A stretch of 64,000 bases of DNA, taken from contig CAJNOJ010000142.1 of assembly GCA_905250025.1 (NCBI GenBank), positions 43,523 through 107,522 on the forward strand, written 5' to 3'. The stretch is from Adineta ricciae. Lineage: Eukaryota > Rotifera > Eurotatoria > Adinetida > Adinetidae. Position 1 is the stretch's first letter, and every line of letters begins with the position of its first letter. Positions 15,628-61,803 of the stretch are shown here, piece by piece. A model generated the notes under the pieces. The model searched no databases. It worked only from the letters and a program-made list of their open reading frames with translations, and had not been told where the DNA came from. Both the position numbers and the translations under genes were made by a program.

Positions 15628-15670
15628 GTCGTTGAAGATAGAGAATATGATGGATGCAAACGCGAAATGA

Positions 15671-19440: not shown

Positions 19441-19474
19441 AGACTTATTCTACCGAAGACCGATAAGCAATTTT

Positions 19475-31300: not shown

Positions 31301-31731
31301 TCGTGACATCTCGTTTTTGTTCCTGTTCCATAAATGTTTACCCTAAACCATTCTTCATCAATCGATATGTTGATTACATCCGTTAAAGATCTAATCAGTC
31401 TATGATCATTACAGTAATCCCAATCACATCCAAAGATAATTTCGTCTGGTTTTATAAGCCAATCGTTTGACATTGACCTATATACAATGGAATGTTTAAC
31501 GGTGATGTAGTAAACATCTAATGTTGAAGAATATTTTCTGTGAGATAAATAAGAAAGTGATTCGAGCAGTGGATCATGTTGGGTTATTGTACAGTGAATA
31601 TTGTCGTGCACCTCATTGACGGGTTCGCACTCGCATTCATCAAGAAAGCAAATACATTCGTAACAAATTAAACTGAAACTAGACGACACGCTTAAAAGAA
31701 GAAAGAAAACATGCGTCCAACGTAACGACAT
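28333..31731 (-). CDS. Adhesion-type GPCR with two Ly6-like modules (haplotype 1)
   Basis: Exons 30244-31731, 30015-30194 and 28333-29961 have the same lengths as in the allele at 10669-14068 and give 1098 residues. The start is taken at MSLRWTH, aligned with the allele. The open frame upstream to 31923 is unlikely to be coding because the other haplotype is closed there. The GPS CSCNHLTSF and the seven spans are intact. The module Cys pattern is kept, with minor changes in and around Cys-rich blocks (for example CVNS for CANS after TM1). Confidence 0.84.
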
Positions 31732-32289
31732 TTGTCGAGATTGCTGATTGATAAAAGTATAAAACGCAACCAAGAATGGAAAGAAATGTACATCAAGATA
31801 AAACGTTTTATTGATCCCTTGTCTTTTATAATGCAACCACTCATGAGTATCAGCAGAAAACAAATGAAGGTTTCGCTTGCGATTCATAGTCAATAAATTT
31901 ATAACTAAATTCGTTTTTAACAAGAAAAAAGAACGTGGTTATCAACTGACTGCTTTTTTACTGATCTTATTTTTAGTTAAATCGCATGCGAATTAAAATC
32001 CAATGGATGTCTCACTAAATGGTGTACCTTTTGTTCTAATCTAACTGTTTTATGAATTAATGAAAGACTTAGCGGCTTCTCTCCGATGACATTTTAGTCT
32101 CGATACTTTTTTATACATGGCTATTTTTGTCATTCAGTTTCATTATAATCACGATAAATGTTTTATTATTGATAATTACAGGCGAACGATGAAATAAGAT
32201 ATAGATGTAAGAACAGATACAAAACGTTGTATATGGGCACAAACATAAAACAGAAAAAAGGAGATTTCGGTTCGTTCAATTGCAATCGA
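31732..32289. other. Intergenic, no gene seen
   Basis: Allelic to 14069-14625. Confidence 0.35.
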
Positions 32290-33288
32290 TTAGTCTTGAC
32301 GGATATGCGTTTTTGTAGTTGGAACGATACGACGTACTTTTCTGCGCAAAAAATATTCGAACATATTCCTCACTCGACCGCGCAAATTCGGTAAGGTATT
32401 CAAACATGCAAATGGAAATAAAAAGATGATATAGTTCGTGAAAAATGAGGCATATGTACTGTAAGTACTTGCAGCGGAAGATGAAAAACCAACCCGACGA
32501 GCAGTTCCTACCAATACAGGTGGTAAGTAAAAGATATAAAACAGAGCTGTGATTGACAAAAGTTGTATTGCCATCTTTCGATGTTTTCGCCAGTTAACGT
32601 GTCGTCGTAAACGACGTTTCTGCAGAACAACACGCAGAATTAGACTACCACCTCCAAATCCAATCAGAACAGAACACAGTAATCCACCAGATGCATATTC
32701 ATACAATGTAAATGTTGCACTATCATACACACAACTATAATATCCACACATTTCCACAAAATAATAGAATGGCCTGTTGCAATAATTCATCGGAGTGATG
32801 ATCGAATAGAGTACAACACCATAGGTCACAATCAGTATGATTGGTGTGTAGTGAATGAAAAAGCGTCTTCTTCTTGTTGCGATCCAGTTCTCATGAAAAA
32901 TGAGAATGTGTCGCTCAACTGATGCCCATCCAATAAGTTTGGCAGTTGATGTGTACAGTGCTGCATCAAGAATTTTCCATAGGATACAGAATGTTGGTGT
33001 CTGAATCCAAACAATCCTATAGAGAAAAAGGTACATTTGAAAGGGTACGTCGGTTAACTCCCAGATGAGACAAATAATTAGAACAATAGTTAAAGTATGG
33101 TTGTGTAGTCCACGACGAAGTGTTGAATCAAAAAGGTAATGATAGAGCACAAATACAGCACACAGAAGTGAACAGATATTTGAGATGAGAAAGATCCAAT
33201 AACGCGCGACGTGTGGTATAGCAATACCATCATCATAGATAAAAACTTTGACCATACTAATGAGTTGAGGGAGATTTAATGTCAACAT
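32290..33288 (-). CDS. Recombinant GPCR: 5' half of paralogue B fused to 3' half of paralogue A (haplotype 1)
   Basis: 332 residues, one exon, fully open. From the start through about residue 235 it follows B (MLTLNLPQ, MNYC, FVEMCGYY, GGGSLIL, HVNWRK). After FYLPP it follows A (VLVGTARRVGFSSS, FFTNYI, FEYFLRRK, and the IRQD end). The 5' flank matches that of B and the 3' flank matches that of A. Diagnostic bases switch within about 32580-32600. The missing DNA is about 1.66 kb: the 3' half of B, the spacer and the 5' half of A. All seven spans are present, so the fusion is probably a working receptor. Confidence 0.85.
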   Translation of the reverse strand: MLTLNLPQLISMVKVFIYDDGIAIPHVARYWIFLISNICSLLCAVFVLYHYLFDSTLRRGLHNHTLTIVLIICLIWELTDVPFQMYLFLYRIVWIQTPTFCILWKILDAALYTSTAKLIGWASVERHILIFHENWIATRRRRFFIHYTPIILIVTYGVVLYSIITPMNYCNRPFYYFVEMCGYYSCVYDSATFTLYEYASGGLLCSVLIGFGGGSLILRVVLQKRRLRRHVNWRKHRKMAIQLLSITALFYIFYLPPVLVGTARRVGFSSSAASTYSTYASFFTNYIIFLFPFACLNTLPNLRGRVRNMFEYFLRRKVRRIVPTTKTHIRQD

Positions 33289-34050
33289 GTTATTGAGTAT
33301 GTAGAAATATGATGAATGAAAGCATTAAGTGCTATGTTATAAAATATGAAAGGCGTCATAAGTGCTCATTAGTTGGCAACTATTAATATGGTTCTTAAAG
33401 CAGCAAAAATATCAAATACGTGTGCGAAGCGACTGCGTCATAATTGTGATAAAAAATGTTTTCCTTCAATGTATTCCATGACACGAATTGATTTATATAA
33501 AAGTGCACACTTTTACTAGCGACAGTGGGAATGAAGACACTTGCTACTTATTATTGACACAGAAGCTATTTTGACGATCTGCATATTTCACATTACGCTT
33601 TTTTACTTTCAATCCGTAAGGCGCAAGTGCTTGCTGAGCCGCCTTACTAAGGTGTTGATAACGAGTTTGTGCGTACTCTTATATACAAAAGAATGATATT
33701 CTTCGTCGAACATTCTGCTGACATCATTGAGTGCTGTTGAAATGAATGATGTCTATAGGTAGATTGTACGACATGCTTCTAACATGTTTTTATTACTGAA
33801 AGAAATGAAAAACAACGACGAAGACTACAGTGTTGACGAAGAGCGATACTCAACAGAAAGACAATGTTTCATGATCACGAATCATTTCGGCGCCAACGCA
33901 ATAATCGCATATTTTTCGAAATTACCTATTACAATATAAAGTTATTTGGAAAAAACACACAGTTGAATATTAAGGTAATGTAATTATAGAGAAAGAACAG
34001 TAGCATGAATATCTGTAAATCATTTTGATTTTCATTGTAGAAAATCGACT
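33289..34050. other. Intergenic, no gene seen
   Basis: Allelic to 17286-18047. The CRE-like core upstream of the fusion GPCR reads TGACGCC here. Confidence 0.35.
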
Positions 34051-35360
34051 TAGGAACAACTTCCAAACGAGTTTATTCACAAAATCTTTGTACATCTGCA
34101 TTCACACTATGCATTCCATACCTTCCATAATCTTAATATACGATTTTGAAATCTTTTACTTCATGCAAACTGTTTTACACGGCATTAATACGTCATCCAT
34201 GCGCAAACCAGCGTTTGAACGATACTGAAAAGAGAACATCGTTCCGTATGCTCCGCGAGTCAAATCACTACGTGTATCTGAAATCTGTGCATCGTTGCTT
34301 TCTATCATGGCAAACTTTACTCAACTGGGAGGACTTATCGTGCACAATATTAACGATTACTTCGTCGGATCAACTTACAAATTCAGAAGTGCTATTGAAA
34401 ACGATTTTTAATCTGCCCAGATTGACATATTGTCAAATGTTTTTAAACATAAACAAAACAGTATTATCGCCGGTAACAAATCAAGTGAATTCAATGTGAG
34501 TTTCGATGATTTTCAATCGCTGATGGCAAAATATTTTCGTCGAGTCGAAGTTTTACATATCGTAGTAGCTCATTATTGGTTGTCCGCGCGTGTTGCCTTT
34601 GATTATCAACATATATTTTACGTTTTGTATCTTAAACAAAATCGATCATCTTATCAAACTTTAGCTGACAATTTTAATTCAGTATTTTGGATTGAACATA
34701 GATGGCTCTTTGAATATCAGTACAATTCAAATTTCACTGTAGGCATTTTCTTCTTACGAAATTCATCGCATTGTACAAGCGGATAACTATTCTATTTCTA
34801 CTCATGTATACGTTTTCCTCGTGCAAAATAACTTACTTTTCTAGAAACGTTTCGCATTCCTCGTGAGTAATTAGCAAACATGATTCAGCACATTCTTCCT
34901 ATGAATCAATTAACTCAACTAACGTGTTGAACTCTCTCTATCTTTTGAACATATACCGAACGTTCATACATTCAAATTCAAATTCTTATCATTTCGCGCG
35001 GAGTCGAGTTTACTTCAATTGAACAAAATGAACCATTTCAAATTGCGTCGAAAACAAATACAATGATGAAATTGTGTATTGAACAAACGATCCGATTCGA
35101 ACAATTGAAATTGATCACTGCTCTATTTCCTCGACTAAAATATCTTATTAGTGATTTGTATAGAAAAGATTTGAAATTGTTAGCAGAATGTCTATGATCG
35201 AGAAAGTGGAATACTTGTCAACATCTATGTTTACCGGATATGGTGAATGAAAATGAAGATTTAATGAGAGATTTGGAGCCTTTGATTCAAACTAGAAGGC
35301 GTCGTTCGATTTGTTTTGTTAAAGTTATGAACAAAAGTTTGTATTTGTGGTGGTCAAGAC
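34051..35360 (+). pseudogene. Degenerate F-box/LRR-type gene (haplotype 1)
   Basis: Allele of 18048-19440. The first F-box codon is already a stop here (TAG in place of TTG at 34051), the TGA after about 32 codons is shared, and further frameshifts follow. One short stretch present near 18820-18890 on the other haplotype is deleted. Confidence 0.55.
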
Positions 35361-35390
35361 TTATTCTACCGAAGACCGATAAGCAATTTT

Positions 35391-36485
35391 TTATTTGACT
35401 GAATAAAAAGATATTCGTGGATTTTCTAATTTCAAAAGAAAACCTGATGTTTTCAGATGTCGTCTTCTATGTAGATAACGTCCTTGAAGTGTTTTTGTCC
35501 TTTTTTTCAACATGATTGCCAATTCTTCTTTGTACACATTGGATGGCAAAACAAACACTGGAAAGATAAGCATTGGTGGAACGAACGAGATATAGTACTC
35601 GATAAGGAATAACCATGGATCTCGAAAGAAATGATTATACGAGGTAAAGTCAGAATTACTAAAATACAAGGAGAAATCAGCAGATGTTTATTCTGCCAAA
35701 ACTGATCATATACATAGTGGTCGCCCTTTTCTTGTTTACGAGTAAATGATCATTTTCGAGCTAACATGACAATGATGATCATAGCAGAAATTAGATTGAC
35801 AAGAAAAGGAAGATGAGAATGAACCAAGTTAACAATTATATCCACTGTTTATAGAATTGATGTATATTTGACAACGCAACAAGTTTGTTATTCTTCATCG
35901 TCAATGAGATGTCGATGAAATGGTTCATACACTGCTGTGGATATGCTCATTAACAAAATTATCAGAATAATACATTTCGTCATATTTTTACTCTTCTTCC
36001 TGTTAAAGTTGATACCTTTGATCAGAGTTACAGTTCGCTCGATTGTAACACCAGCATTCAACCAATCAACTGTGGTTAAATGTATCCGAAGAAGAGAATC
36101 TAAGGATATACAACTAATAAATGTAAGTAAATCATTGTTTATCGATGTCAAAAAATTGTAGGAGAGCGAAAATCCAAAATTTTAGGATCAGTAAAGTTGT
36201 CAGAACTAAAGAGTCAATGGATGCCACTTGAAGGTAGGTACCGTTACTCATTATTCGACAATTTTCTGCACTGAACGTCATAATCGATAAGCCGCTAGCA
36301 ATAATATTTAAAACAAAGATATTAGTGCTGGTTAATGCAGTTGCTTTTGAATCCCAATCTCTGTTCAGTCCACCATGTGTTGGGCCGTATCTGATGACCA
36401 AGAATATAATTCTCCGAGCTTTGTGCGAGTCGGCGATGTAAATAACGGCGGCAAATTCGACCTTGTTATTACTTATTCTAACCAT
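35391..36485 (-). pseudogene. GPCR-C, inactivated allele (haplotype 1)
   Basis: Homologous to 19475-20596 but broken. There is a 25-base deletion near 35620 (frameshift before TM7), with the repeated CTCGAA at its edges suggesting microhomology. A CAA-to-TAA nonsense change lies near 35850, an in-frame 6-base deletion near 35890, and a small insertion near 36147 shifts frame between TM2 and TM3. No single frame covers more than a third of the receptor. Confidence 0.75.
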
Positions 36486-36912
36486 AATAATTTTGGAATA
36501 CTATTCAACAACGCTGCTAACCAATTTCTCACTCAAATCTCGTATGATACCGATAAGGAACCAATCTCAGCACTGATTGCCGATCTTAATTACGATAAGA
36601 AATTAGATATTCTCATAGTCAATCGTAAATCTCACAGTATCGGTATCTATTTCAATAATAGTCATAAACCTGAATTTCCTTCCGTAACTTACTCGACACA
36701 AATTGAATCCGATTTTTGTTGGCGTCGCTCATGTCAATGACGATGATCAAGTCGACATTATTATTCTGCACGACCAAAGTATCGGCGTTCTGTTTACTCA
36801 TTGTCGACCATCATGGTCAAATCTTAGTTCTCAAATGATATTGTATAAAGAAATTTACTTCAAAATATCATTAGACGACGGCATTGGTTATCTCCGGCAA
36901 ATCGACTTATAG
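36375..36912 (+). pseudogene. FG-GAP/VCBS-repeat fragment (haplotype 1)
   Basis: Allele of 20483-20965 with the same frameshift near 36718. Calcium-loop repeats VGDVNNGGKFDLVI, ADLNYDKKLDILIV and AHVNDDDQVDIIIL are readable. The first has lost an Asp (NNGGK for NNDGK). Confidence 0.55.
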
Positions 36913-37056
36913 TTTCCCCATTCAACTCAAAACGTCGGTTGAAGGTGCGAGTGAAAGTGAATCTCTAAATTTTGTAGTTGAAACTTGAAGACAATATCGA
37001 ATTCAGCTTTATTAAAAATACGAAGGAGCTCCGTATCGAACTGCAGAAAAAAAAAG

Positions 37057-39231
37057 TTATTTATTAGCGAATATGTTCGTGAGTCCTCCACGTAGCTCAA
37101 TGGCCTCTTTCGACCTGTTCTTTTTTCGTTTCTGAACAATATAAATACCAGCTGAAGACAAAACAACAATAATAACTGTTAAAGGAATCATTATTGCCAA
37201 AATTGTTTTCCATTTGCCATCATCCTTTGGTGCTGCTCCTAATGTAGTGACGATAGTTGTCAGCGCAACGGATGTTGTCGATTCTTCTGTTTTCGTGGTA
37301 GTCGTTACTTTGGTTGTAGTTGCTGTCATAGATGTTGTGGTTGTTGTAGCTGGGCTTGTAGTTGTCGTAGGTATTGTAGTTGGGCTTGTAGTTGTCGTAG
37401 GTATTGTAGTTGGGATCGTAGTTGTCATAGGTATTGTAGTTATTATAGTAGTGATCGGTATAGTACTGTCCATAGTTGTAAAACTTGTACTTGACAACGA
37501 TAGCGTTGATGACATAGTTGTACTACTAGTCGGAAATGCACAAGACGCATCGATGTTCATACACTCTTGACTTAATTCGTCGATAATCGATTGATTCGAT
37601 AAACAGATCGGTGGCACTCTCATTTGAAGTATGTTTCTCATCATAAATACAAAACAGTTGCATGGGTGATCGTTGTCAAGTAGTAAAATAGTATGATTAA
37701 GTACTTGAAATACTGGTTTAAATAAACAATAATCATTATTAGTAAAATTAATACCCATGACAGTAACCATAAATTGTCTCATTTGACCTTGAACTGCCGA
37801 GTCGTTATAATTTCTAGGTTGATATAACCAGAATTTGTCTGTTTTTGGTGTTCCAGATAGATCTAAGTTGTATAATATATCTGTATGTTTAAAAAGAAAC
37901 CAATTGATTTCTAATAAATTCGTGCAATTCTTTAATAGTAAATTCGTCAATGTCGATGTAATATGTTCAAGAAACGAATTTGTTTGATTTTTACGTTTGA
38001 AGTCTTCGTCATAGACTATTTTTGTTGTTTCCAGTGACGAGAATGGATTTGATGACAAATCCAAATGTTTCACCTTGGTTGCCTTAAAAGTCAACGGATG
38101 AATCGAGCCAATATGATTCGAACTCAAATCAATTATTTCCAACTGATGTGCATTTTGAAATGAATCCTCATATAAGCCTCTAATCTGATTACAACATAAT
38201 TGCAGTGTGTTCAAATGCGTTAGATTTCGGATCGGATCAAAATCATGGAGTAAATTATTCGATAAAACCAGTGTCGTCAATGATTGATTCAATGGATTTA
38301 GAAACGATTTTTTTTCATTATGGATGGTTACAGTTTCCAGGGAAGTCAAATGATTATCATTCAATGTTAATATGGTTAAATGCAGTTCAGCAAAAGCTTC
38401 GTGTGATATTCGTTTCATTTGGTTATACGATAAGTTTAGTCGAAGTAAACGAGTTAAATTTATAAATGTATTCGCATGGATTTCTTCGATCAAGTTCTCG
38501 TGTAAATCAATGTCAGTTAATCCAGTGAATTTAGCCAATGATGGGACATGAACGAGTTTGTTGGAAGATAAGTCTAACTTAGTTAATGAGTTCGAAAGAC
38601 TTTGAATAAGAAGGTCAACATTTGTCAACGAAGATTTTTTTATTTCAACTTCCTGAATCGTTAATGATAATGGCTCATTTTGGATCAGTTGAATATTGTT
38701 ACAGTTTACAATACTAAGTCCTGAAATATTTGCACGCTCAAATGCTTTTAGATTGAGTTGATATGTCTGTTGTTGTTGTCCATCCACAATGAGAATTTGA
38801 TGGTACTTTGACTGGCCAAATGCATGATCAGCAAGCTGGAAATTTCCTGGTGAATTAAAGGTTAAAGAAATATGTGTTTCTGAATAGTTACTCAACATTT
38901 GAAACGTATTTTCAGCTATCTCATCAACACCATTCGTAAATCGGAATTGCAAACTATTAAGCGAAGAAAATCTTGATCGAAAGTTTGTGAACGTATCAGG
39001 TGTTAAACGGGTAATGTTAATAAAATCAAATATATAGCTCTCATATTCAGGAGACGAAAACGTTAACCAATCGATAGAAGTGTCGTTGCTTGCCTGACTT
39101 TGAACACAAGTGACTGAGCCTGTACCACTTTGACAATGGCAAATGATGATGGGATTATTGAGACAAAGAGTGTCTGATTTGCTGTTCGAAATCAGCGAAA
39201 CAACGAGAACCATCAACCATAAGAGAAACAT
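37057..39231 (-). CDS. LRR single-span membrane protein (haplotype 1)
   Basis: 724 residues, allele of 21166-23304. Signal peptide, Cys caps, LRRs, span and basic tail are all present. The Thr/Pro stalk is longer because of a 30-bp repeat expansion (37351-37440). The LRR region differs by scattered conservative changes only. Confidence 0.87.
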   Translation of the reverse strand: MFLLWLMVLVVSLISNSKSDTLCLNNPIIICHCQSGTGSVTCVQSQASNDTSIDWLTFSSPEYESYIFDFINITRLTPDTFTNFRSRFSSLNSLQFRFTNGVDEIAENTFQMLSNYSETHISLTFNSPGNFQLADHAFGQSKYHQILIVDGQQQQTYQLNLKAFERANISGLSIVNCNNIQLIQNEPLSLTIQEVEIKKSSLTNVDLLIQSLSNSLTKLDLSSNKLVHVPSLAKFTGLTDIDLHENLIEEIHANTFINLTRLLRLNLSYNQMKRISHEAFAELHLTILTLNDNHLTSLETVTIHNEKKSFLNPLNQSLTTLVLSNNLLHDFDPIRNLTHLNTLQLCCNQIRGLYEDSFQNAHQLEIIDLSSNHIGSIHPLTFKATKVKHLDLSSNPFSSLETTKIVYDEDFKRKNQTNSFLEHITSTLTNLLLKNCTNLLEINWFLFKHTDILYNLDLSGTPKTDKFWLYQPRNYNDSAVQGQMRQFMVTVMGINFTNNDYCLFKPVFQVLNHTILLLDNDHPCNCFVFMMRNILQMRVPPICLSNQSIIDELSQECMNIDASCAFPTSSTTMSSTLSLSSTSFTTMDSTIPITTIITTIPMTTTIPTTIPTTTTSPTTIPTTTTSPATTTTTSMTATTTKVTTTTKTEESTTSVALTTIVTTLGAAPKDDGKWKTILAIMIPLTVIIVVLSSAGIYIVQKRKKNRSKEAIELRGGLTNIFANK
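37351..37440. repeat. Three 30-bp units in the LRR-protein stalk (one unit in the other haplotype)
   Basis: Units start at 37351, 37381 and 37411 with TGGG-TYGTAGTTGTC patterns and encode a Thr/Pro/Ser decapeptide on the minus strand. The other haplotype has a single unit (21484-21513). It is an in-frame coding minisatellite that differs between haplotypes. Confidence 0.82.
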
Positions 39232-39475
39232 TTATGTAAGTAAAAAGTTCTTGTGATGTGTAACTACGTGTATCTTTGCTTGTTATCTGTTACAATGCAT
39301 GTTTATTATTAGGTTTGTTACGATGCATCCACCTTTCTGCTTTGTGCGAAGCATTGATAGAGGTAGATAATATATAGCAACTATCGCTTAATTTTTCTCT
39401 GTGAGAAACGAAACTAATCAAACTGCGGAGGCTATCTCTAGAATTTTATTCGTTCACTTTTTATACTGTTTATAT

Positions 39476-41188
39476 TTAACATTCACATAAACCAATGTCA
39501 TCGATGATTAGGTCGTTTCCGGCGTAGCTGTTACAATTCGATATCATTATTAGCATGACAGAAGTACTTGGCGCAACGAATGATATTCCATGTTTGCTCC
39601 AAGTGATACTGGCATATTCAGGTATATCACTAGAGTTTCTTTGAGCGATCAAACTATTGTCTGGTGTCACAGCTCGAACTTCAAACAGTATGTTCGGCAG
39701 AACAGACCACTCTGGCTTGTTTAAATTGGCTGCATACATCGAAAATTCATAGACTTTGCCGACAGTTAAGTTATCAATCGTTTTGTTAAAATACATTCCA
39801 GGATATGTTAATGCATTCACAACATACATATATCCACCGTTTTCACCAGCTGTATGATCTTTCTTTACGACAAGCCAATAAAAAGTTTCAGGAAGAGCAT
39901 TGGCAATAACAAAATAACCATCACTTGGTGTTCCTGAAAACAGTTGTATGTGTTCTGTTGTGAAGCCGAAATCAGCCGGGGTTTTGTTCGAATACTGATC
40001 AAAACCGTATCCGAATGTGATCAAGAAGTTTTCAGTTCCATTTGTTGAATTTGTACCATTGAGGTCAATGGTACAAAGGCATTTATTTGCTGAATTGTAT
40101 GTCACTGAATGAAATGTAAAAATGTGATTTTTGCGTGTAAAATAAAAAATCATTCACCTGCCGTTGTCGGGATTGTGCTAGTCGTTGGTTCGCGTGTAAT
40201 GCTGATTATTGTAGTAGCTAAAATTCAGAGTATTCATTGTAGTGTATTCAATCAAATCTTTATCTGTACGATGAATGACAATGGTTTCTTAAGCATTACT
40301 ATTACCTACGCTGGTAGCAAGATAGTGTTGCTTCAACCTGTACGTCACTACTAATAGTTCGCACAATCTCGACACAATTTTGTTTTATGAGGAAAAATTC
40401 AGTTGTTTGATAAGAAAAAGTTAGAGGTTAAATGCGGTCTGTTATTTAACAAAAACACTTACTAGTGCTCGCATTGAGAAAGTAGCAGAACTGAATCGGA
40501 ACTAAACGATAATCACCGTTCGCTATTTGTAGAGTGACTCTTAAAGCGAAACTAAAACACATTTCGATAGATCTTTTTATATGGGCTATATAAGTTTCTT
40601 TGCAACTGTCAGTTTTGCAAACAGAACTAGGAAACTTTTGAATATGAAGCTTGATTGTCAATAAGCCACATTTCTGACTTTTCACAATAATTTTGTCAAG
40701 AACAATGTCACACGATAAATCAACACTAAAATTAGCAACAGCAAAACTTATATCAAAACGAAGTGATAATAAATTCGACAAACAAACCCTGTGTATTGCT
40801 TCATCTCATTGGTATTGGTACTCGAAGTGAAATTGTCGATCAAGAAAATGGATTGAACTTGAACATATTCTGTTGAAATGCCGAGATATTTGTTTATCTG
40901 TACATTGAGAATTTACGTGAATATTATTTGATTGAATGAATGTTCACTTACTTGATCAATCATCGCGTCATAGTTTGTAATTTGCGTGATGTCGATGTTG
41001 GATAGACCAACAGCAAATGCTGTGTGTATAATTTGTTCACCTAAAACAAACATAATCAAAATTTAACAAAGTAGTCTTGCATCTGAAAGACTTTTGTCAC
41101 TACTATCAGAATTGTTTGTCGTTGATAAACAACCGGAAATAATCAATAAAAGAATAGGACTGATAATCAAAGCAAGATGGTTCTGCAT
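39476..41188 (-). CDS. Secreted Cys-containing protein with Thr linker and carbohydrate-binding-like domain (complete)
   Basis: Six inferred exons on the minus strand: 41104-41188, 40952-41040, 40788-40897, 40463-40725, 40158-40217 and 39476-40104. Phases close to 411 residues plus stop. Residues 1-22 are a signal peptide (MQNHLALIISPILLLIISG). A middle domain of about 160 residues has paired Cys (KCGLL, VCKTDSCKE, MCFSF, QFCYF). A linker TTISITREPTTSTIPTT has its own 60-bp exon. The last 210 residues resemble a jelly-roll carbohydrate-binding module: DGYFVIANA, GKVYEFSMYAANLN, and NDLIIDDIGLC. Not assigned to a named family. The intron at 40218-40462 is long for this locus (245 bp). Confidence 0.65.
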
Positions 41189-44697: not shown

Positions 44698-47600
44698 ATG
44701 GAATCTGATATGAACGAGGTATGACACGTTTATTTCTACGTAAATAAAGTCTTCGTAGAAAATCTGAAACAAAAATATAAAGTGCTTTTACGTGTAAGTG
44801 TGTAAACATTGCCGTTAGTGTTTCTATCAGTTACATTATTGCGTTATCTTGAAGACGTTAGTTACCAATACTTACCATAGTCCTTATTTAAAGTTTGAAT
44901 GATTTTCGAACTGGTACACACTAATTAATCTAACTTTTCTCGCTAAACAAGTGTAATAGCAAGATAAGTAATTTGTTATTAATTTTTCAGCTTGAATATT
45001 TGCTAAGAAGACGAAACGTGCACAGCAATCGCGACAAGCAAGAATTATGCGCGGTAAGAAAAGTTGATGTTGAAGAGAAGCATGTCGCAGCAAAGTCCAA
45101 CGATAATGCACGGAACAATGGACAAAAACAAATGAAAAAAGAAGAAGATGAGAAGAAAAGTGATTCACCAAATATTTTGGTTGAAATTCAATCGAACTCG
45201 AACAATGTAGAAACAGGCAATGATAAACACGAGATAATTGAAATGGAGACTATTAAACAAACAAACATCGATTCAAAGACAAATAATCAACGAATGGTAG
45301 ATATTGGTATTCTGCATCAAAATCAGCAATGTACTACAAATGCTATAGCTGATATCGCCCCAAGTTCTGATCCTATATTGGAATATGCTGCAGAGCCTTT
45401 ATTGCCACTTGTTAAAGCATGTGCTCCACTTTCCGATATTATTCATGATATAGCATTCTATGTTGAGTTGGCGCTAAAGGAAACTCCAGAAAAACCACCC
45501 GACGGACTAACGGTCGATGAAAGTGCTGCGATTCGTCTTTATACCATTGAATGGTCAGGAGGACATCGAAGTCTCTATTCAATGCTTAATTTTACTCTTA
45601 AGAACGCGAGCCGTGAAAATCTTCGACCTTATTTCAAGTACATGAAATTGTTCATAACTGCTCTTGTTAAATTGCCATGTGTTCCACCCGTAACTGTTTG
45701 GCGAGGAGTGACTAAAGATTTGAGTGCAGAATTTCCTCCAGGTACTCCAGTCACATGGTGGGCATTTTCATCATGCACAACGGAACTAACTGTACTTGAG
45801 AACAACATGTATTTGGGTAATGAGGGTAGTAGAACATTATTTTCTGTAGAAGCCATTAATGGCCGAACAGTGCGTGAACATTCGCATTTTGTTACTGAAG
45901 ATGAGCTTCTTCTCTTACCTGGTACTCATATGATCGTCCAATCGCAATTTAGTCCAGCTTCTGATCTTCATATTATTCATTTGAAACAGGTGATACCTGA
46001 TGAAGTGTTATTGGAACCACCATTTGAAGGTAACATAAAGATTTTTAATGGTTTGCTTCAAACTAATAGTATGTCTGCATTTAGGTGCATGTCTTTATCC
46101 AAAAATCGAGTAAGTGTAGCGGCTTTTTTTTGTCTAACTGTGTTTGTGACGAATCGTTTCGTTAAATTTATAAGACGTCCATGGTATCGGAAAAAAAGAT
46201 TTGCCATTCCAATTTGTTTGCTAAGTCTTCTGGTAATTGCCGCAGTGGCCATCGGGGCAGTTCTGGGAACAAAATCTAGCCGCAACATACTAGGTATGCT
46301 TTTCAAAATATCTTTAATTCGAAAGTGATTAACAACTTGTTCCACAAAACTTAGATCATGATGAGGGTGTCATTTGTGTACTTTTCTTCTCTTCGTTTCT
46401 TCCAAAACTATCTCAAATAGGCTTTCATTTACGACGAAGCACTCATGAGTTAAGAATTATCATCAGTAATAAAACAAGGAGCGCTCATTAGAAAATTCCG
46501 AAATATAAAGCGTTCTCTTGTATAACATATGCAGAATTGCATACGTGTTAGTCATGCATATTTTCCGATAGCTGAAGACGCAGTTTCGAGTTACATTTAG
46601 CTCACATTAACATAAGATGCACTACAGTGACTACGCGAATAGGTCATAGAAACTTATTGCCTACTTTAACTGATAGCAAGTCGTTCGATATTCAGAATAA
46701 CTTCATCTAACATCATTTTTCTGATTATTTACTGTTTTTAGTTTTACCTCACAGAGAGATTAAGTATAGGTCATAAGTTTCGTTCATCAGAATCAACACA
46801 TTGTTCGACGCATATCTAATATGTCGTAAACTTTATCTCTTTTTTTGCAGGCCCAACTTGTAACGACGGCGTAAAAAATGGCGATGAGACTGATGTGGAT
46901 TGTGGTGGATCTTGTGCAGTACAAAAGAAATGTGCCGATTTGAAACGTTGTCTTAATTCCTATGATTGCATCAGCAGTGTTTGTACGGTGAACCTTTGTC
47001 AAGGTGAGTAAATTGATCTATCGTTTCAAGAGTTTGAATCGCTTCATTTCAGTGCCTACTTGCAATGATGGCGTCACGAATGGCAATGAAACTGATGCAG
47101 ACTGTGGTGGACCATGTTTACCCGTAAAACAATGTCATGACGGATTAAGATGTAGTAATGCATCAGATTGCGTTAGCAGTGTCTGTACATCAGGTTTTTG
47201 CCAAGGTGAGTGATAATCATTTGTAATGGCAAATATTTCAGGTTTTCTGCTCTAGTTTCTACATGTAACGATGGTGTCAGGAATGGAGATGAGACCGGCA
47301 TAGACTGTGGTGGATCCTGCGCATCGCAAAAGAAATGTGCCGATTACATAGGTTGTTTTAATTCCTTGGACTGCATCAACGGCATCTGTACAGCGAACCT
47401 TTGTCAAGGTGAGTAAATTGATCTGTTGCTTCAAGAGTTCGAATCATTTCATTTCAGTGCCTACGTGCAACGATGGTGTTATGAACGGAAATGAAACTGA
47501 TGTAGACTGTGGTGGACCATGCTTGCCCGCGAAACAGTGTCGTGACGGATTAAGATGCAGTAATGCATCAGATTGCGTTAGCAGTGTCTGTACATCAGGT

Positions 47601-50600
47601 TTTTGCCAAGGTGAGTGATAATCATTTGTAATGGCAAATATTTCAGGTTTTCTGCTCTAGTTCCTACATGTAATGATGGTGTCAAAAACGGAGATGAGAT
47701 AGACATAGACTGTGGTGGATCATGTCTTCCAGGTAAACAATGTGTTGATGGATCGAGATGTAAAACTACATCCGACTGTATCAGCACCGTGTGTATATTC
47801 AATAGTTGCCAAGGTGAGCAGCGTTACCTATAATGTAACGAATTCGAATGTTTATACTTCAGTACCCACTTGCAACGATCATGTCAAAAACGGAGATGAA
47901 ATTGATGTAGACTGTGGTGGATCATGTCTACCGGCAAAACAATGTGGAGATGGATTGAAATGTAATAATGCATCAGACTGCATTAGTGGCGTCTGTATTT
48001 CAAGTGTTTGTCAAGGTGAGTGAAGTCAGTTAGCCAGAATAAACGCAATCATAGAGGTATTATACTTATAACTTTAAACAACTACTTTTAGATCTATTCT
48101 TAAATATAAAAGAAAATGCTCTTTAGTTTCTATTCGAAGGGAGAAACAGTGCCATGTTACAGAACGATAATGTATTTCTGCTTAGTTGAAATTCTGAGTC
48201 TTCTTGATATTTCTAGACTGATCAACCGGAAGTTGAATTTCTCAGGCCGTTTTAATCATAACTAAATTCATATTTCTTTTTTGAACTTGAAATTCATTTT
48301 AAATTGGAAAATGATTCATGAGCTTGTATAAACGATATTCCAGGAATACCAGTACGAAATTGCGAAAGAGTTTCTACTTTATGAAAAATAAACTATTGAC
48401 GTTCATGTTCCGGTTTCATGCAGAAAACCAAAGCTGAAATTCTATTATTCAGAACATCAATCACTTTTTTGAAAGTCTGAAATTCGATGAAAGAATAATA
48501 AAAATTTCAAAATGCTAAAGGTATTTGAAAATCGTTTTTTTATAAAATTGACTTTAGAAAAAAGGTGATCTTTTGAATCTGAACAGGTATCTCATTATGT
48601 TTAAATTTCAAATGTTTCTGCAGAATAGCTCAGAGCTTGATGAGTCAAAAGAACTGGTTACTTCGTATGTGACGAATTTTATTATTGTTGTTATAGTTCC
48701 TAATTGTAACGATGGTGTCGCGAATGGAAACGAAACTGACATAGACTGCGGTGGTAGCTGTCATTCTATTAAAAAATGTAATGATGGAGAAAAATGCAAC
48801 GGTGTGTTAGACTGCAATAGTGGTGTGTGTACATCAAATATTTGCCAAAGTGAGTGTAATTATTTGTAATATTAATATTTGAACTTCTCTCTTATAGCTC
48901 CTACTTGTAATGATAGTGTCAAGAATGGAAACGAAACTGGTATTGATTGCGGCGGGTGGTGTGCATCGCAAAATAAATGCGTCGATAATGCAGTGTGTCG
49001 AAATCCCGACGATTGTATCAGTGGCGTCTGTAAATCAGATATATGTCAAAGTAATTATAGTACTTTGCCATATAAACTTTCTCTTTTTGAGTATCGTAGT
49101 TCCCACTTGCAACGACGGCGTCATGAATGGAAATGAGGGTGACGTGGATTGCGGAGCGGTATGTCTGCCACTTAAACCTTGTACAGATTTATCAAGATGT
49201 AGAATTGGTTTCGACTGCAAAAGCGGTGTTTGCACATCTAATCTTTGTCAAAGTATGTATGATTATCTATAATATGAGTTGTATCGCCCTGTGCATCCTA
49301 GTTCCTACTTGCAACGACGGCGTCAAAAATGCAGATGAGACTGATATCGACTGTGGTGGATCGTGTGTGCCGAATAAACGATGTGGTGAGCTCTTGAAAT
49401 GTATTAATCCATCCGATTGTAAAAGTGGTATCTGCATCTCAAATGTATGTCAAGGTAAGTTTAATGCTGAGCAACATGACGAGTACAATTAACATAAGTG
49501 TTGCCGGTATCGCTCTTACGTACTACTTTCATAGGGGATGTATGATAAGTTTTTTATTAGGATAAAGCGCATCTAAAATAGGATTTATTGTTATGGAATT
49601 GTAGGATTAACTAAGATATTTAATGCCAACGTTAGGACCTTTTTGAAAAATCTTCCTAATCTATCAAATAGAAAAATGCGTTAAAATTAATTTATTAAAT
49701 ACTTTAACATAGCTCAGCAAGTTTTACACAAAAATCGCATGTATTAATTTCTTACTCCGTTTTCCGAGATAAAAAGATCAATAAACCACTTGAAATTGTC
49801 TTAAAAAATGCAGTTTCCCATGGTAAGAAAGAAGTGTCTTTTATTACTACTATTTTCATCAACGAAAACGTTTCGCATTGCAACCAACATGTAGAGCTTA
49901 AAAATATCTCCTCAAATAAACATATAAAGAAAAGATTTTCCTGGGAAAATCGAGTAATAATTACCTAGAACGAAAAAGTGAACATTTCAGCGTGTTGTGC
50001 GTGATTTATTAATCTTCTTGTATTACAAGATTGGTTTTCAAAAAACTTCTCACGCTCTATGGAACCATGTAAACATGTCAAATGAATAAGTTTAAAATTT
50101 TTTACCGTGCCTTTCCATTTGGTATTATACATATTATTTGAAACTATAGAGTAACTTTCTTTGAACAACATATATGGTGGATTAAAAATCGAAAGTTAGA
50201 AAATAAATTCCTGCTTCTGTAACTGGATGCAGCAACTCAATGGCCATATTATTGCTCATGAAGACAAATACAGCAGCCTTTTTGTCTCCTTTAGTCTCCT
50301 ATACATGGTAAAAAATGAGTATAGAATAATAAATCCTACAGAAGGTTTTCCTAACCTCATGTGACCTTTTATTTATCGTCTAATATAATGAACCCTTTTA
50401 TAAACTCTGTTTCTCTATCAACCATATGAAAGATAATATATACGTTCCATTTGTATAAACGCTATAGGGTATATCATTAATAGTGAAGCTACAGGCGGTT
50501 TATCATACCAAACGATATATGAAAGGATTCATGAGGTTAAGAAACCACTTTGAAAGGTTCATTATTTAGTACGCATCTTTTTCCTGTGAAGAGCCCAGCG

Positions 50601-53600
50601 CTTTAAATAGATGTAAAAAAATATTCTGTCTCCAGTAACTGCTCTCCTATCCTTTTACCTCACCAAACATGTTAAAACATTCACGATTTCGCAGCTATAC
50701 CATTTTCATTTTGATTCTTCAAAAATATTTCACTTAACTAATTTTCTAAACTTAAACCGAGCTATCAAGACTCTCCATCAACAACCGATATGAAACGCCA
50801 TCATTTCTTATTAAGAGACAAACGAAGATATGTAATATACAGTTTTCTATTTGGATGTAGAAAAACCAATTCCCTTATCTGCACTTCCAATCACATACCC
50901 TTTGCAAAAACTCTTAGTTCATAAACCAGTATAACGAACGTTCTTACTCATATAACAAGGAGGCACAATATAAAATAAAACTTCCGAGAAGTTACAAAGC
51001 GTTTACATTAAACGCTATTCCAACACACCTTTTCCATAAAACGCTCACCATTCTTTTCCTTGCAACAAGTGTGACCTTTCCTACCAGTGCATTCCCTTTT
51101 CGAGAATTAAACAAACAAACCTCACACTTTCCAAACACTACTTCCTCGATCATAGAATTACTCAAAACACCCCCATTTCACAGACCATCAAAATCATAAA
51201 TTAAACCTTTCTATTAAACTCTTCTCCAACAGGATGGACAATTACTAGTAGCATGTCTGCTCCAAGAACCAAACACGCAGCAACCATATTAACGAATGGA
51301 AAGGTCTTAGTTACTGGTGGATATGATAATACTTATTCTACTCTAAATAGTGCTCAGTTGTATGATCCAACATTAAATACTTGGACATCTATTAGTAACA
51401 TGAGTACTGCACGATTCGACCACACAGCAACAGTATTAAAAAATGGAAAAATATTAGTTACTGGTGGTTCAGGCACTTATGGTGGTACCCCGAACAGAGC
51501 TGAGTTATATGATCCAATATTCAATACTTGGACACCTGTCGCTGACATGAATTCTGAAAGATCTGTTCACACAGCAACCCTATTAACAAATGGAAAAGTG
51601 TTAGTTGCTGGTGGTACAGTCCCTGATGGTACCCACGGCAGTGCAGAGTTATATGATCCAAGGTTCAATACTTGGACACCTACCGCCGACATGAATTCTG
51701 CACGGTTAGGTCACACAGCAACCATATTAACGAACGGAAAAGTGTTGGTTACTGGTGGATATGACACTGATGGTTCTCTGAACAGTGCTGAGTTATATGA
51801 TCCAATATTCGATACATGGACACCTATCAGCAACATGAATTCTGCACGATCTGCTCACACAGCAACCATACTAACAAATGGAAAAGTGTTAGTTACTGGC
51901 GGGTCTGATGGTGCTAAACCACTCAACACTGCTCAGTTATATGATCCAGCATTCGATACCTGGACGCCTATCAGTAACATGAATACTGCACGATCGGCTC
52001 ACACAGCAACTCTATTAACAAATGGAAAAGTGTTAGTTACTGGTGGATATGATGGTGCTAAACCACTCAGCAGTGTCCAGTTGTATGATCCAATATTCAA
52101 TACTTGGACAACTATCAGTGACATGAATACTGCACGATCCGCTCATACAGCAACCATGTTAACGAATGGAAAAGTGTTAGTTACTGGTGGTACAGGCGGT
52201 GTTGGTCCTTTGAGTAGTGCTGCGTTGTATGATACAACACTGAGCGCTTGGACACCTATCAGTAACACAAACACTGCACGATACCATCACACAGCAACTA
52301 TGTTAACAAATGGAAAAGTATTAATTACTGGTGGTTCAGGCACTTATGACAACCAGAACAGTACTGAGTTATATGATCCAATATTGGACACTTGGACACC
52401 TGTCGCTGACATGAATTCTGGACGATCTTCTCACACAGCAACCCTATTAAGAAATGGAAAACTGTTAGTTGCTGGTGGTTCAGGCGCTGATGGCACCCAG
52501 AACAGTGCTGAGTTATATGATCCGACGTTCAACACTTGGACACCCACCGCTGACATGAATTCTGACCGTTCATCTCACACAGCAACCCTGTTAACAAATG
52601 GGAAAGTGTTAGTTACTGGTGGATATAGCAGTATTGGTTCTACGACAAGCGCTGAGTTGTATGATCCATCATCCAATACTTGGACACCTACCGCTGACAT
52701 GAATACTGACCGTTCATCTCACACAGCAACCATATTAACAAATGGAAAAGTGTTAGTTACTGGAGGTTCAGGCACTTTTCATCTTCTGAACGATGCTGAG
52801 TTATATGATCCAGCATTAAATATTTGGACACCAGTCACTAGCATGAATTGTGCACGAAAATCTCACGCGGCAACAATATTAACCAATGGAAAAGTATTAG
52901 TTACTGGTGGAGAGGACATTACTAGTTCTCTGAACTGCGCTGAGTTGTATGATCCAAGATTCAATACTTGGACACTTGTCAGTAACATGAATTCTGCACG
53001 ATCTTCTCACAGAGCAATCATACTAACAAATGGAAAAGTGTTAGTTATTGGTGGTTCAGGTGCTGCAGGTCTTCTGAACAGTGCTGAGTTATATGATCCA
53101 ACATTCAATACTTGGGCACCTATCAGTAACTTGAATTCTGCACGATGGTTTCACACCGCAACCATATTGATAAATGGAAAAGTGTTAGTGACTGGCGGAC
53201 ATGGTGTTGCTAAGCCGCTGAACAGTGCTGAGTTGTATGATGCAACATTGAGCACCTGGATACCTATCACTAACATAAACACTGCACGATACTATCACAC
53301 AGCAACTATGTTAACAAGTGGAAAAGTGTTAGTTACTGGTGGATATGACGGTGGCACTTCTGTGAACAGTGCCCAGTTGTTTGATCCGACATTAAATACT
53401 CGAACACCTGCCGCTAATATGAATTGTGCACGAAGATCTCACACGGCAACAATATTAACAAATGGGAAAGTGCTGGTTACTGGTGGATTTGACAACGGTG
53501 CTTCTCTGAACAGTGCTGAGTTGTATGATCCAATATTCGATGCTTGGACACCTGCCGCTAACATGAATAACGCACGATCCGCTCATACAGCAACCATATT

Positions 53601-55266
53601 AACAAATGGGAAAGTCTTAGTAACTGGTGGATATGGTGGTATTGGTTTTAGTAGCAGCGCTGAGTTGTATGATCCATCATCCAATACTTGGACACCTATC
53701 AGTGATATGAATACTACACGATCTGCTCACACAGCAACCACATTAACAAATGGAAAAGTGTTAGTTACTGGCGGTTCAGGCATTGGTGGTACCCGGGACA
53801 GTGCTGAACTATATGATCCGGGATTAAGTATATGGACACCGGCTACTGACATGGATTGTGCACGATCTTCTCACACAGCAACCATATTAACGAATGGAAA
53901 AGTATTGGTTACTGGTGGATATGACACTGGTGGTTCTCTGAACTGTGCTGAGGTGTATGATCAGGCATCAAATACTTGGACACTTATTAGTAGCATGAAT
54001 ACTGCGCGATCTTCTCACGCGGCAACCATAGTAACTAATGGGAAAGTCTTAGTAACTGGTGGATATGACACTGCTGGTTCTCTGAACAGTGCTGAGTTAT
54101 ATGATCCAACATTCAATACTTGGACACTTGTCAGTAACATGAGTTTTGCCCGATCTTTTCACACGGCAACCATATTAATAAATGGAAAAGTGTTAGTTAC
54201 TGATGGATATGCTAATGGTGCTTCTCTGGATAGAGCTGAGGTATATGATGCATTATTAAATACTTGGACACCTATCCGTAACACGAATACTGGACGATAC
54301 TATCACACAGCAACTATATTAACAAATGGAAAAGTGTTAGTTACTGGTGGATATGATGGTATTGCTTCTTTGAACAGTGCTCAATTGTTTGATCCAACGT
54401 TAAATACTTGGATACCTACGAGTAACATGAGTACTGCACGATACTCTCACACAGCAACCATGTTAATAAACGGAAAGGTGCTAGTTGCTGGTGGATATGC
54501 CAATGGTGCTTCGCTGAACAGTAGTGAGTTGTATGATCCAGCATTAAATACTTGGACACCTATCAGTAACATGAATAATGCACGATCTTCTCACACGGCA
54601 ACCGTATTAACCGATGGAAAGGTGTTAGTTAGTGGCGGTTTTAACAATGCTAGTTTTCTCAGAACTGCTGAGTTTTACGATACGGTGTGGAATAATTGGA
54701 CAACTATAAATAGCATGAAATGGTCTCGAGGATTCCACACAGCGAACGTTTTACAGAATGGAAAGATCTTAGTTGCAGGCGGATATGACGGAAGTGACTT
54801 TTTAGCCAGCGTTGAAATATATGATCCGTTGGTGGACAGTTGGTTACCTATGGGTAGTATGTTGGCGAAGCGTGGATATCACACAGGAATCGTTTTAGGG
54901 AACGGCAAGGTGCTATATGCGGGTGGATTCAATGGCAATAATTCTTTGGTTAGTGCGGAAATATATGACGTGACGTGGAATAACTGGACAAGCACTGGTA
55001 GCATGAATGTTGCGCGATACTCTCACACAGCAACTATGTTAACAAATGGGAAAGTGTTAGTTGTTGGCGGATATACCGGAAGGCAGGCTGTAAATAGTGC
55101 TGAGTTGTACGATCCATTACTGAATATCTGGCCAACTATCAGTGCCATGAATTCCGCGAGATACTTTCATACAGCAACCATGTTAGCCGATAGAAATGTG
55201 TTAGTTACGGGCGGTTATAATGGCAATGATTTGGTGATCAATGCGGAATATTATTTGTGGACATAA
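44698..55266 (+). CDS. Receptor-like arginine ADP-ribosyltransferase: ART, membrane span, 10 Cys modules, 28 kelch motifs
   Basis: Inferred exons are 44698-44718, 44991-46029, 46085-46109, 46175-46293, ten of 153 bp (46851-49454) and 51233-55266. They sum to 6768 nt in frame (2255 residues). There is no signal peptide. Residues 8-150 are charged. The ART domain (about 165-350) has the R-S-ExE triad: Arg245 in VWRGV, Ser267 in AFSSCT, Glu310/Glu312 in EDELLLLPG. A strongly basic PWYRKKR precedes a single span (about 371-395), so the ART should face the cytosol and the rest outside. Ten 51-residue modules with eight Cys (C-x13-C-x3-C-x5-C-x5-C-x5-C-x4-C-x4-C, usually CNDGVKNG..TD.DCGG) follow. 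Then 28 kelch motifs of 48 residues fill 919-2255. Known ARTs modify arginines using NAD; target unknown. Exon 1 is the least certain part. Confidence 0.78.
46851..49454 (+). repeat. Ten tandem 153-bp exons encoding eight-Cys modules
   Basis: Exons 46851-47003, 47053-47205, 47256-47408, 47458-47610, 47661-47813, 47863-48015, 48697-48849, 48898-49050, 49100-49252 and 49302-49454 are all 153 bp, all phase 1 at both ends. Introns are about 49 bp, except 681 bp between the sixth and seventh. The introns after exons 1 and 3 are near-identical, as are those after exons 2 and 4, showing a recent two-exon (405-bp) duplication. Confidence 0.85.
49455..51232 (+). other. 1.78-kb intron before the kelch exon
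   Basis: By far the longest intron in the window. Bases 50344-50394 and 50497-50546 form an imperfect inverted repeat (GGTTT-C-TAACCTCATG type arms). The last 600 bases are strikingly poor in G on the coding strand. No open frame of note. Confidence 0.55.
51253..55263 (+). repeat. 28 tandem 144-bp kelch motifs with a seven-motif super-period
   Basis: Each unit follows the pattern M-N-x-A-R-x-x-HTATxLTNGKVLVTGG, then a variable loop, then a SAELYDPxxNTWTP block. Motifs spaced by seven share private features: 7/14/21 (TLS or LLN before W), 8/15/22 (NTARYHH / YYH), 10/17 (SAELYDPSSNTW), 11/18 (NIWTP / SIWTP), 12/19 (N- or D-CAR plus LNCAE), 14/21 (ILINGKVL), 16/23 (NGASLNS) and 17/24 (MNNARS). 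The last motif is incomplete. Motifs 24-28 are the most diverged. Confidence 0.85.
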
Positions 55267-60062: not shown

Positions 60063-60654
60063 ATCAGCATGATTAACATTGATTTTGATGTTTATTTATT
60101 CTTCATAAAACAATATAACAAATAATATTTTCCAGTGAGTTTATGTTTATCATTGATTCATTTTTATGTCAACATACACGTGAATGTGATCACTTCATGT
60201 AGAAACAAAAAAAGATTCTTTTTTTTTTCTTTCATCTGAAACAGACAAGTTAATTAGATGCATTGCCAACGGCTGTTGTTGGTGTTATTCGTAAGGATTT
60301 TTATTTTCTAGAGAATTCGCAAATGATCCCTGAGTTTACATTGAAGAAGTATAATAACTGCCTTGAAAAAGAAACCAAACTCTCATCTGTTTAATATTAC
60401 GTCACGTGCTCAGCTAGTTCATCCGCGTTCTTTCCTTTTTCTCTTTCTCTCGTTTTGGGATATTCTGAGTTGAACTTCTCAACATCGTTAATTCCAGCAT
60501 TCACGGCGTGATAAAAGATAAAAGAGAAGACTTGCACGACGATTATTTCTGATTATAATTGTCATCTGTTGAGAATCTCACACCTACCTTCTCTAATAAA
60601 TAAAATGTCGTCGTATATTTATTACATTCATAGGAGTTCCATACTTTTTCCGAA
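60063..60654. other. Intergenic, no gene seen
   Basis: A polypyrimidine stretch near 60220 and the GPCR upstream region. No clear promoter motif. Confidence 0.35.
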
Positions 60655-61803
60655 ATGAACTCTACATTCGTGACAAGCACATTAACATTCACATACGATG
60701 CATTGTCAATAAATATTCAAGCATGGTTCATCCCACTTGATATTCTCGCAATTACATCGATGATTTGTGTTATTCTTCTATCCATCGTTTATTTAGTTCT
60801 TCTTATTGTCGATAAAGCATGTCACACCGTTCCAATGTTGCTAATTGGTAATACTTGTTTCATTGCTTTTCTAGCTGCGTGTAGTATTCTCAGCATGTCG
60901 ATATTTACACTTCAAAATGATCTCAAACAAATTAAATATCAGGATTCATACTGCATCTTTCGAGGTTATACTGCTTATGTCGTTTGTACACTATTCAACT
61001 TCTCATTCGTTCTTCAAGCTGTACATAGATACTTGACCGTTGTTTATCCAACTCGTTTCTTTTTGCATTCAGCGAAATTCTATCTTTGCCTGATTATTTG
61101 CACATGGATATTTGGTATTGTATTCCCATTTCCGTTTGTATTTACAAATGAAATAACTTACAATGCCNCATACTGCATCTTTCGAGGTTATACTGCTTAT
61201 GTCGTTTGTACACTATTCAACTTCTCATTCGTTCTTCAAGCTGTACATAGATACTTGACCGTTGTTTATCCAACTCGTTTCTTTTTGCATTCAGCGAAAT
61301 TCTATCTTTGCCTGATTATTTGCACATGGATATTTGGTATTGTATTCCCATTTCCGTTTGTATTTACAAATGAAATAACTTACAATGCCGACAATCAAAT
61401 CTGTCAATTACCATTTCGACTCTCTTGGCCTATTCTTTACATCGTACATTGCGCTTATCTAATTCCTGTTCTGTTGATTATGTTCATTTACTTTAAATTA
61501 GTCCGATATGTTCGTCATATGAGTAGACGTATTACGCCAGTGAATACTTTACTTCGTGCACAACGAGGATTGAAAATGGTTCAACGTACAATTATCATCG
61601 TCGCGATTTTAGTTATACTTTGCTTTCCTTATGCTCTGTTCATTGGAATATCGTTCTTTACTCCGCCACCGAAGTATCACTTTCGAATTGCTTATATCTT
61701 TGCTGATTTATCAATAGTATCAGTTATGTTGGCTTTATTTCAATTTACTGATTCGCTCAAAGAATCTTTTATGAAAAGAATCAATGGAACGTCAAATACT
61801 TAG
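60655..61803 (+). CDS. Rhodopsin-like GPCR carrying an assembly duplication
   Basis: The frame reads through an N at 61168 and a 221-base exact duplication. Without the extra 222 bases the protein is 308 residues with seven spans. The N-terminus is glycosylatable. TM3 ends QAVHRYLTVVYP (HRY in place of DRY). The third loop is basic with RTIIIVAILVILCFPYALF as TM6. The tail is short and ends SNT. The ligand is unknown. As written, TM3 and TM4 appear twice, which is not a credible receptor. Confidence 0.82.
   Translation: MNSTFVTSTLTFTYDALSINIQAWFIPLDILAITSMICVILLSIVYLVLLIVDKACHTVPMLLIGNTCFIAFLAACSILSMSIFTLQNDLKQIKYQDSYCIFRGYTAYVVCTLFNFSFVLQAVHRYLTVVYPTRFFLHSAKFYLCLIICTWIFGIVFPFPFVFTNEITYNAXYCIFRGYTAYVVCTLFNFSFVLQAVHRYLTVVYPTRFFLHSAKFYLCLIICTWIFGIVFPFPFVFTNEITYNADNQICQLPFRLSWPILYIVHCAYLIPVLLIMFIYFKLVRYVRHMSRRITPVNTLLRAQRGLKMVQRTIIIVAILVILCFPYALFIGISFFTPPPKYHFRIAYIFADLSIVSVMLALFQFTDSLKESFMKRINGTSNT
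60947..61389. repeat. 221-bp exact direct duplication around a single N (assembly overlap)
   Basis: 60947-61167 equals 61169-61389 base for base as read, with N at 61168. The offset is 222. The same offset recurs at 62352-62794. Confidence 0.9.

Follow-up and report, generated by a model that had tools for sequence, protein, structure and literature searches.

Receptor kinases and guanylyl cyclases combine an ectodomain, one membrane span and a cytosolic catalytic domain. Vertebrate ARTC ecto-ADP-ribosyltransferases (ART1-5), which have a PF01129 domain and the R-S-ExE residues, are glycosylphosphatidylinositol (GPI)-anchored or secreted, with the ADP-ribosyltransferase (ART) domain outside the cell or lumenal (PMC10789625; papers are cited here by PMC number, for the portions of their text that were available), and human R-S-E enzymes are known to act outside the cell or in the lumen of the endoplasmic reticulum (ER) (PMC10789625). 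PARP16/ARTD15, an ARTD enzyme with an H-Y-E triad, is single-pass and tail-anchored in the ER, with a cytosolic ART domain, then the span, then a lumenal tail of about 20 residues (PMC3372510); according to a review, no other human PARP is known to associate with membranes (PMC10789625). Here, we report a gene of the bdelloid rotifer Adineta ricciae (assembly GCA_905250025.1, contig CAJNOJ010000142.1, positions 43,523 to 107,522, a stretch of 64,000 nucleotides [nt] called the window below), located at 44698..55266 of the window on the plus strand. We consider it fairly probable that its product is a single-pass type II membrane protein of a bdelloid ART-span family, with the ART domain in the cytosol and an ectodomain of cysteine (Cys) modules and kelch repeats outside. 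The protein has PF01129 and R-S-ExE in common with the ARTCs, but it has no signal peptide, and its ART domain precedes the span and a large ectodomain follows. It resembles PARP16 in the order of ART domain and span, but carries R-S-E and, in place of a short lumenal tail, about 1850 residues after the span in the full model. From receptor kinases and guanylyl cyclases, whose layout of ectodomain, single span and intracellular enzyme it would share, it differs in that the enzyme is an ADP-ribosyltransferase placed N-terminally in a type II protein.

The gene model was obtained by splicing the window DNA at GT..AG sites (Table 1). Fifteen exons gave 6768 nt, or 2255 codons and a terminal stop, a length divisible by three with no other stop in the chain; a preliminary description of the stretch had reported unbroken exon phases and the same total. 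Two small introns, 46030-46084 (55 nt) and 46110-46174 (65 nt), are open in frame, which is why a list of open reading frames shows one long ART frame. In many paralogs the stretch matching these introns contains stop codons; of 39 DNA matches other than the gene itself, 19 break off 3 to 5 nt beyond the ART exon; and both introns are spliced out in P0001, the deposited A. ricciae model of this gene; the exon model is therefore right in detail. There is no N in the assembly between 44 and 56 kb, and an open frame of 4 kb together with ten phase-matched exons is far beyond chance. The chain of ART, span, Cys-module and kelch exons is thus confirmed at the level of the DNA sequence.

The ART domain was matched by Pfam PF01129 at residues 175-339 (E 2e-6; score 27.6 bits, curated cut-off 22.3), and the active-site residues that had been read as an intact triad are in place (R245, S267, E310 and E312). 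The R, the S and both E residues are invariant in a 12-row alignment (11 distinct genes, one row being the deposited copy of the window gene), in which the ART domain has a single invariant Cys and so no conserved disulfide pair. The window gene is predicted to encode an arginine-type (R-S-ExE) ADP-ribosyltransferase, which would modify arginine in an NAD-dependent way.

The strongest 19-residue hydropathy window of the protein lies at residues 375-393 (mean 2.8; next best elsewhere, 1.46), directly preceded by RPWYRKKRF. No hydrophobic N-terminus or signal peptide was found by hydropathy, a measure other than a dedicated signal-peptide predictor; the best 19-residue mean in the first 60 residues is only -0.3. 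In the 18 of 19 paralogs caught by the pattern, four to six basic and no acidic residues occur among the nine on the N side of the span. One span, a more basic N side and no signal peptide, as first described, are the features of a type II single-pass protein, whereas a vertebrate-type ecto-ART has an N-terminal signal peptide and is secreted or GPI-anchored; here the span comes after the ART domain. A cytosolic ART domain with the Cys and kelch array outside appears well supported by sequence, because the N-terminus is not hydrophobic, the N flank is basic, the modules past the span are of the disulfide type and the ART domain has no invariant Cys pair.

Table 1. Exons and principal intron of the ART-Cys-kelch gene, in window coordinates.
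Feature	Position	Strand	Description
Exon 1	44698..44718	+	MESDMNE, start of hydrophilic N-terminal region without signal peptide; P0001 begins identically
Exon 2	44991..46029	+	Cytosolic N-terminal region (predicted) and ADP-ribosyltransferase domain with R245, S267, E310/E312; Pfam PF01129
Exon 3	46085..46109	+	25-nt linker exon, ACLYPKIE; homologous ACLYPKN in P0002, ALLYPPE in P0004
Exon 4	46175..46293	+	Basic flank RPWYRKKRF and single span, residues about 373-393
Cys module exon 1 of 10	46851..47003	+	153 nt, 8 Cys
Cys module exon 2	47053..47205	+	153 nt, 8 Cys
Cys module exon 3	47256..47408	+	153 nt, 8 Cys
Cys module exon 4	47458..47610	+	153 nt, 8 Cys
Cys module exon 5	47661..47813	+	153 nt, 8 Cys; spliced otherwise in deposited model
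Cys module exon 6	47863..48015	+	153 nt, 8 Cys
Cys module exon 7	48697..48849	+	153 nt, 8 Cys
Cys module exon 8	48898..49050	+	153 nt, 8 Cys
Cys module exon 9	49100..49252	+	153 nt, 8 Cys
Cys module exon 10	49302..49454	+	153 nt, 8 Cys; donor CAAG/GTAAGT; deposited model continues to stop at 49492
1.78-kb intron ahead of kelch exon	49455..51232	+	0 hydrophobic (signal-peptide or span) first-exon candidates
Kelch exon	51233..55266	+	4034 nt, 28 kelch motifs, stop codon at end; predicted propeller blades

The ten Cys exons are all in phase 1-1 and encode 51-residue modules with exactly eight Cys each. The kelch exon contains 28 kelch motifs (21 anchors by pattern and 7 by inspection of the 48-residue period), so that both counts of the preliminary description were reproduced, and Pfam Kelch_1 matches it in 24 stretches (E 3e-245). 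An AlphaFold2 model of the first 1200 residues of this exon had a mean predicted local distance difference test score (pLDDT) of 85, confidence being low at two breaks, near 335-373 and near 848-865. The model begins with a stretch of seven repeats; its long middle stretch does not divide into propellers, and its last stretch is incomplete because the submitted piece ends within it. PDB kelch domains match the model at E 2e-23, and its repeated motifs are predicted to fold into blades, as in a kelch beta-propeller. Among 21 of the repeats, the proportion of nonsynonymous differences (pN) was below that of synonymous differences (pS) in 202 of 210 pairs. Among the matches listed for the Cys modules (46851-49454) and the kelch array (51233-55266), most were bacterial or metagenomic proteins (32-57% identity), with one row from Adineta steineri; for this reason, these parts of the ectodomain may be of foreign origin.

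The A. ricciae assembly (130 Mb, 1033 contigs; window in contig C142) gave at least 131 matches to the ART-span region, not all candidates being scored. A span-exon probe found 34 places, of which 33 adjoin ART-matching DNA on the same strand; since two of those matches cover only 84 and 292 nt, the count includes fragments. Homologous copies are often assembled apart in A. ricciae (PMC5916493), and some of the 33 loci may therefore be allelic pairs. Ectodomains were called by repeat motif in the translation: downstream DNA is of FG-GAP type at 30 loci, Cys-kelch at the window gene only, and without anything recognisable in 1.75 kb at two (L054, L055). Pfam, applied to 4 of the 30 FG-GAP-type loci, found FG-GAP_3 in all four. 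At L039, the DNA read enters a gap after the span, and the read at L043 is unclear. The usual ectodomain of ART-span genes in this genome is thus FG-GAP, not kelch. Outside the 33, an ART paralog on contig C211 is followed by Laminin_G_3 (Pfam), and on contig C739, kelch matches lie 8 kb from an ART match (only 37% identical) and on its strand. At C350:15406 (L057, C350:13900-16600), the one exception among the 34 places, a span exon and an FG-GAP-type ectodomain have no listed ART match upstream; the ART head there may have been lost, replaced or missed. Eight other ARTs of the genome (L001-L008, 36-41% identical) have no span exon in their flanks and no obvious signal peptide when their N-terminal readings were inspected; A. 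ricciae may therefore have many ARTs that are soluble and cytosolic.

Deposited proteins gave the same picture. The ART-span query returned 30 rows: the copy of the window gene, ten further proteins with the head (P0002-P0011), P0012, and 18 matches over a short stretch, the named ones bacterial, which probably match the start of the first Cys module, a part of the query. The ectodomain of the ten is FG-GAP in two and Laminin_G_3 in eight, each joined to the head in one protein; Rotaria sordida, Rotaria sp. Silwood1, Silwood2, A. steineri and A. ricciae are the sources among the named relatives. In P0006 and P0008, both ART-span-Laminin-G proteins, there is a second, partial ART copy at the C-terminus; each is perhaps two genes merged by annotation. 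The order of ART exon, linker exon and span exon is conserved, as seen in the 33 adjoining pairs and in the linkers of P0002 and P0004. The ten proteins and the 30 FG-GAP loci share with the window gene homologous ART, linker and span exons and the invariant triad, and differ from it in having FG-GAP or Laminin-G in place of Cys modules and kelch. By sequence comparison, this is a bdelloid family with a conserved ART-span head and an exchangeable ectodomain, the window gene being its Cys-kelch variant. The interpretation in the preliminary description is thus partly supported: the gene is one member of a family and not a lone gene, and the receptor-shaped architecture is strengthened by its relatives, since the ART-span pair is found again, ahead of other ectodomains, at 33 loci and in other bdelloids.

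The head is under purifying selection: the ART core of the window gene, compared with 19 paralogs, has a ratio of nonsynonymous to synonymous rates (dN/dS) of 0.07-0.22 in the 16 of 19 with computable dS, and none of the 19 has a stop in the core. In a tree of 38 cores, the 30 ART-span heads form one group apart from the eight other ARTs of the genome (support, 97/98; the program warns of long branches among those eight); the window gene falls in an unresolved set with FG-GAP heads, and the Laminin-G heads do not form a single group. Core and ectodomain dS differ widely in three pairs (L010/L011, 0.019 versus 1.84; L016/L026, 0.062 versus 1.17; L017/L021, 0.115 versus 1.11). L010 (C81:161321-) and L011 (C81:149043+) are inverted ART-span genes about 12 kb apart. 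In 150-base blocks, their DNA is 99-100% identical, in introns as well as exons, over the stretch that begins with the ART core and closes with the span exon; identity is 33-67% upstream and 21-67% downstream. Because the cassettes are near-identical and both flanks diverged, it seems likely that gene conversion has homogenised the enzyme-span cassette of genes that differ in their outside parts. Uniform homogenisation of heads was rejected: among 21 pairs with core dS below 0.9, L014/L015, L016/L017 and L021/L026 have the lower dS in the ectodomain.

As a mechanism, the span would act as the signal anchor of a type II protein, the ten disulfide-type modules would form a stalk, and the 28 kelch motifs, as beta-propellers, would be carried outside. 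Most probably, ligand binding or clustering of the ectodomain would bring cytosolic ART domains together or to their targets, and the output would be NAD-dependent arginine ADP-ribosylation of cytosolic proteins. Since one enzyme head stands behind several binding folds, different ectodomains might supply different inputs to one shared output. The genome has 58 matches to PF03747 (ADP-ribosylhydrolase family) and 40 to Macro, exon fragments included, so that erasers and readers are present in number, and the modification could be reversed by the many ADP-ribosylhydrolase-type genes. At L047 (C470:5400-8100), L048 (C360:22500-25100) and C470:18623-20391, a PF03747 match lies at most about 0.5 kb downstream of an ART frame and on the same strand; here a writer appears to adjoin an eraser or to be fused with it. 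We tentatively propose a bdelloid receptor class with an arginine-ART effector, in which a partly conversion-homogenised cytosolic ART-span cassette would be joined to exchangeable ectodomains, some of them bacterial in appearance (FG-GAP, Laminin-G and Cys-kelch), and opposed by expanded ADP-ribosylhydrolases, as write-and-erase signalling; as a whole, this proposal is less probable than not.

The same cassette could instead encode a membrane-bound ART that modifies nearby cytosolic proteins constitutively, with an ectodomain serving adhesion or localisation only and no gating by a ligand. Kelch, FG-GAP and Laminin-G folds are also found in adhesion proteins, and nothing in the sequence shows gating. 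PARP16, which may act in this way at the ER, shows that an ART anchored in the membrane can work in the cytosol with hardly any lumenal tail (PMC3372510). That one head is combined with at least three kinds of large ectodomain is, as an argument only, more easily explained by varied inputs, and we regard the constitutive enzyme as somewhat unlikely.

Several results weigh against a receptor-like ART with a Cys-kelch ectodomain. For the enzyme, an AlphaFold2 model of the ART exon from the 12-row alignment had a pLDDT of only 48, the best ART match of this model in PDB was at Foldseek rank 4 (E 1.5; poor model, unused), and phmmer found no PDB relative of the ART exon at E <= 1. The C side of the span is basic as well, though less so than the N side, with one to three basic residues among eight in the 18 paralogs matched by the pattern. 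The Adineta vaga protein P0012 retains only the ends of the head. Diversifying selection on the ectodomains was considered and is not supported, with dN/dS of 0.14-0.54 in the 19 of 21 close pairs that gave a value. For the join of Cys and kelch parts, P0001 (100% identical, 924 amino acids [aa]) ends at 49492, after the Cys modules and without kelch; among the ten further ART-span relatives in the deposited set, no kelch domain is listed for any. The A. ricciae annotation used RNA sequencing with BRAKER (PMC5916493, PMC7943196), and the join missing from P0001 could for that reason reflect reads.

There may accordingly be two genes, one for a 924-aa ART-span-Cys protein and a separate kelch gene starting within the 1.78-kb interval that parts Cys exon 10 from the kelch exon; open frames with kelch, of about 340 aa, are common in the A. 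ricciae genome. P0001 is nevertheless not a careful model here, because its C-terminus runs through a GTAAGT donor sited where the nine other Cys exons splice, and because it splices Cys module 5 differently, losing part of it. A scan of the interval for first exons (ATG, phase-1 donor, 15-residue mean hydropathy above 1.6) gave no candidate with a hydrophobic stretch, though a cytosolic start would escape it. At C315 (L038), three Cys exons that all leave in phase 1 are separated by a long intron from a kelch exon that opens with GATGG, like that of the window; unlike the window gene, this locus has a signal-peptide-like frame upstream, three modules found and no ART in the 6 kb read. At C418, a long intron lies between a Cys exon and a short kelch frame of matching phase. 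This recurrence of Cys-then-kelch order in matching phase favours the join. A search for a deposited protein covering the kelch exon, made among proteins of 739-2350 aa (best 120 of 8000 scored candidates), found none; among the matches listed, none is named as rotifer and none exceeds 51% identity. We therefore judge it likely that the Cys and kelch parts are one gene, and two genes unlikely.

An ecto-ART, with the domain outside or lumenal as in human ARTCs (PMC10789625), is very improbable: the protein has no signal peptide, basic residues stand just ahead of the span in the paralogs, 80 Cys of disulfide-type modules would sit in the cytosol, and the ART domain has no invariant Cys pair. 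An assembly chimera or decaying gene, which could be suspected from a single copy with no allele or second copy found by DNA (40 matches: self and 39 at 65-87% identity, the 87% match being 47 nt), is the least credible alternative, given a stretch free of N, a frame intact over 6.8 kb with all splice sites intact, head dN/dS well below 1, and pN below pS across the kelch repeats.

Elsewhere in the window, two similar series of minus-strand frames lie at 9791-24222 (190, 542, 525, 348 ... 712 and 225 aa) and 27453-40153 (190, 542, 591, 344, 724 and 225 aa); judged by frame lengths, they look like a tandem duplication, and two frames of the first series have no counterpart in the list. A GPS motif was found in the 542-aa frame of that first series and leucine-rich repeats in its 712-aa frame. 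Rhodopsin-type seven-transmembrane receptor matches were found at 60634-61803 (+) and, only below the cut-off, at 16257-17321 (-).

Kelch, NHL and FG-GAP are among the repeat families expanded in bdelloids, for which roles in defence and signalling have been suggested (PMC3846280); the available text of that paper has no word beginning with ribosyl. No description of an ART-span-Cys-kelch architecture was found among the titles and abstract openings listed for open-licence papers on rotifer or bdelloid ADP-ribosyltransferases, invertebrate or transmembrane ARTs, bdelloid kelch proteins and type II receptors, in line with the preliminary description, which knew of no such receptor. In a study of A. 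vaga under desiccation and radiation, ADP-ribosylation is among the processes enriched in over-expressed genes in both conditions (PMC10809525); the enzymes behind the enrichment are not named in the available part of that paper, and PARPs may explain it. If the type II arrangement is correct, a family found at some thirty loci, which may include allelic copies, places an R-S-E enzyme inside the cell behind large and varied ectodomains, and membrane-dependent arginine ADP-ribosylation of cytosolic proteins would be predicted. Single-pass receptors would thereby gain a new output, and arginine ADP-ribosylation would be linked with sensing in an animal.

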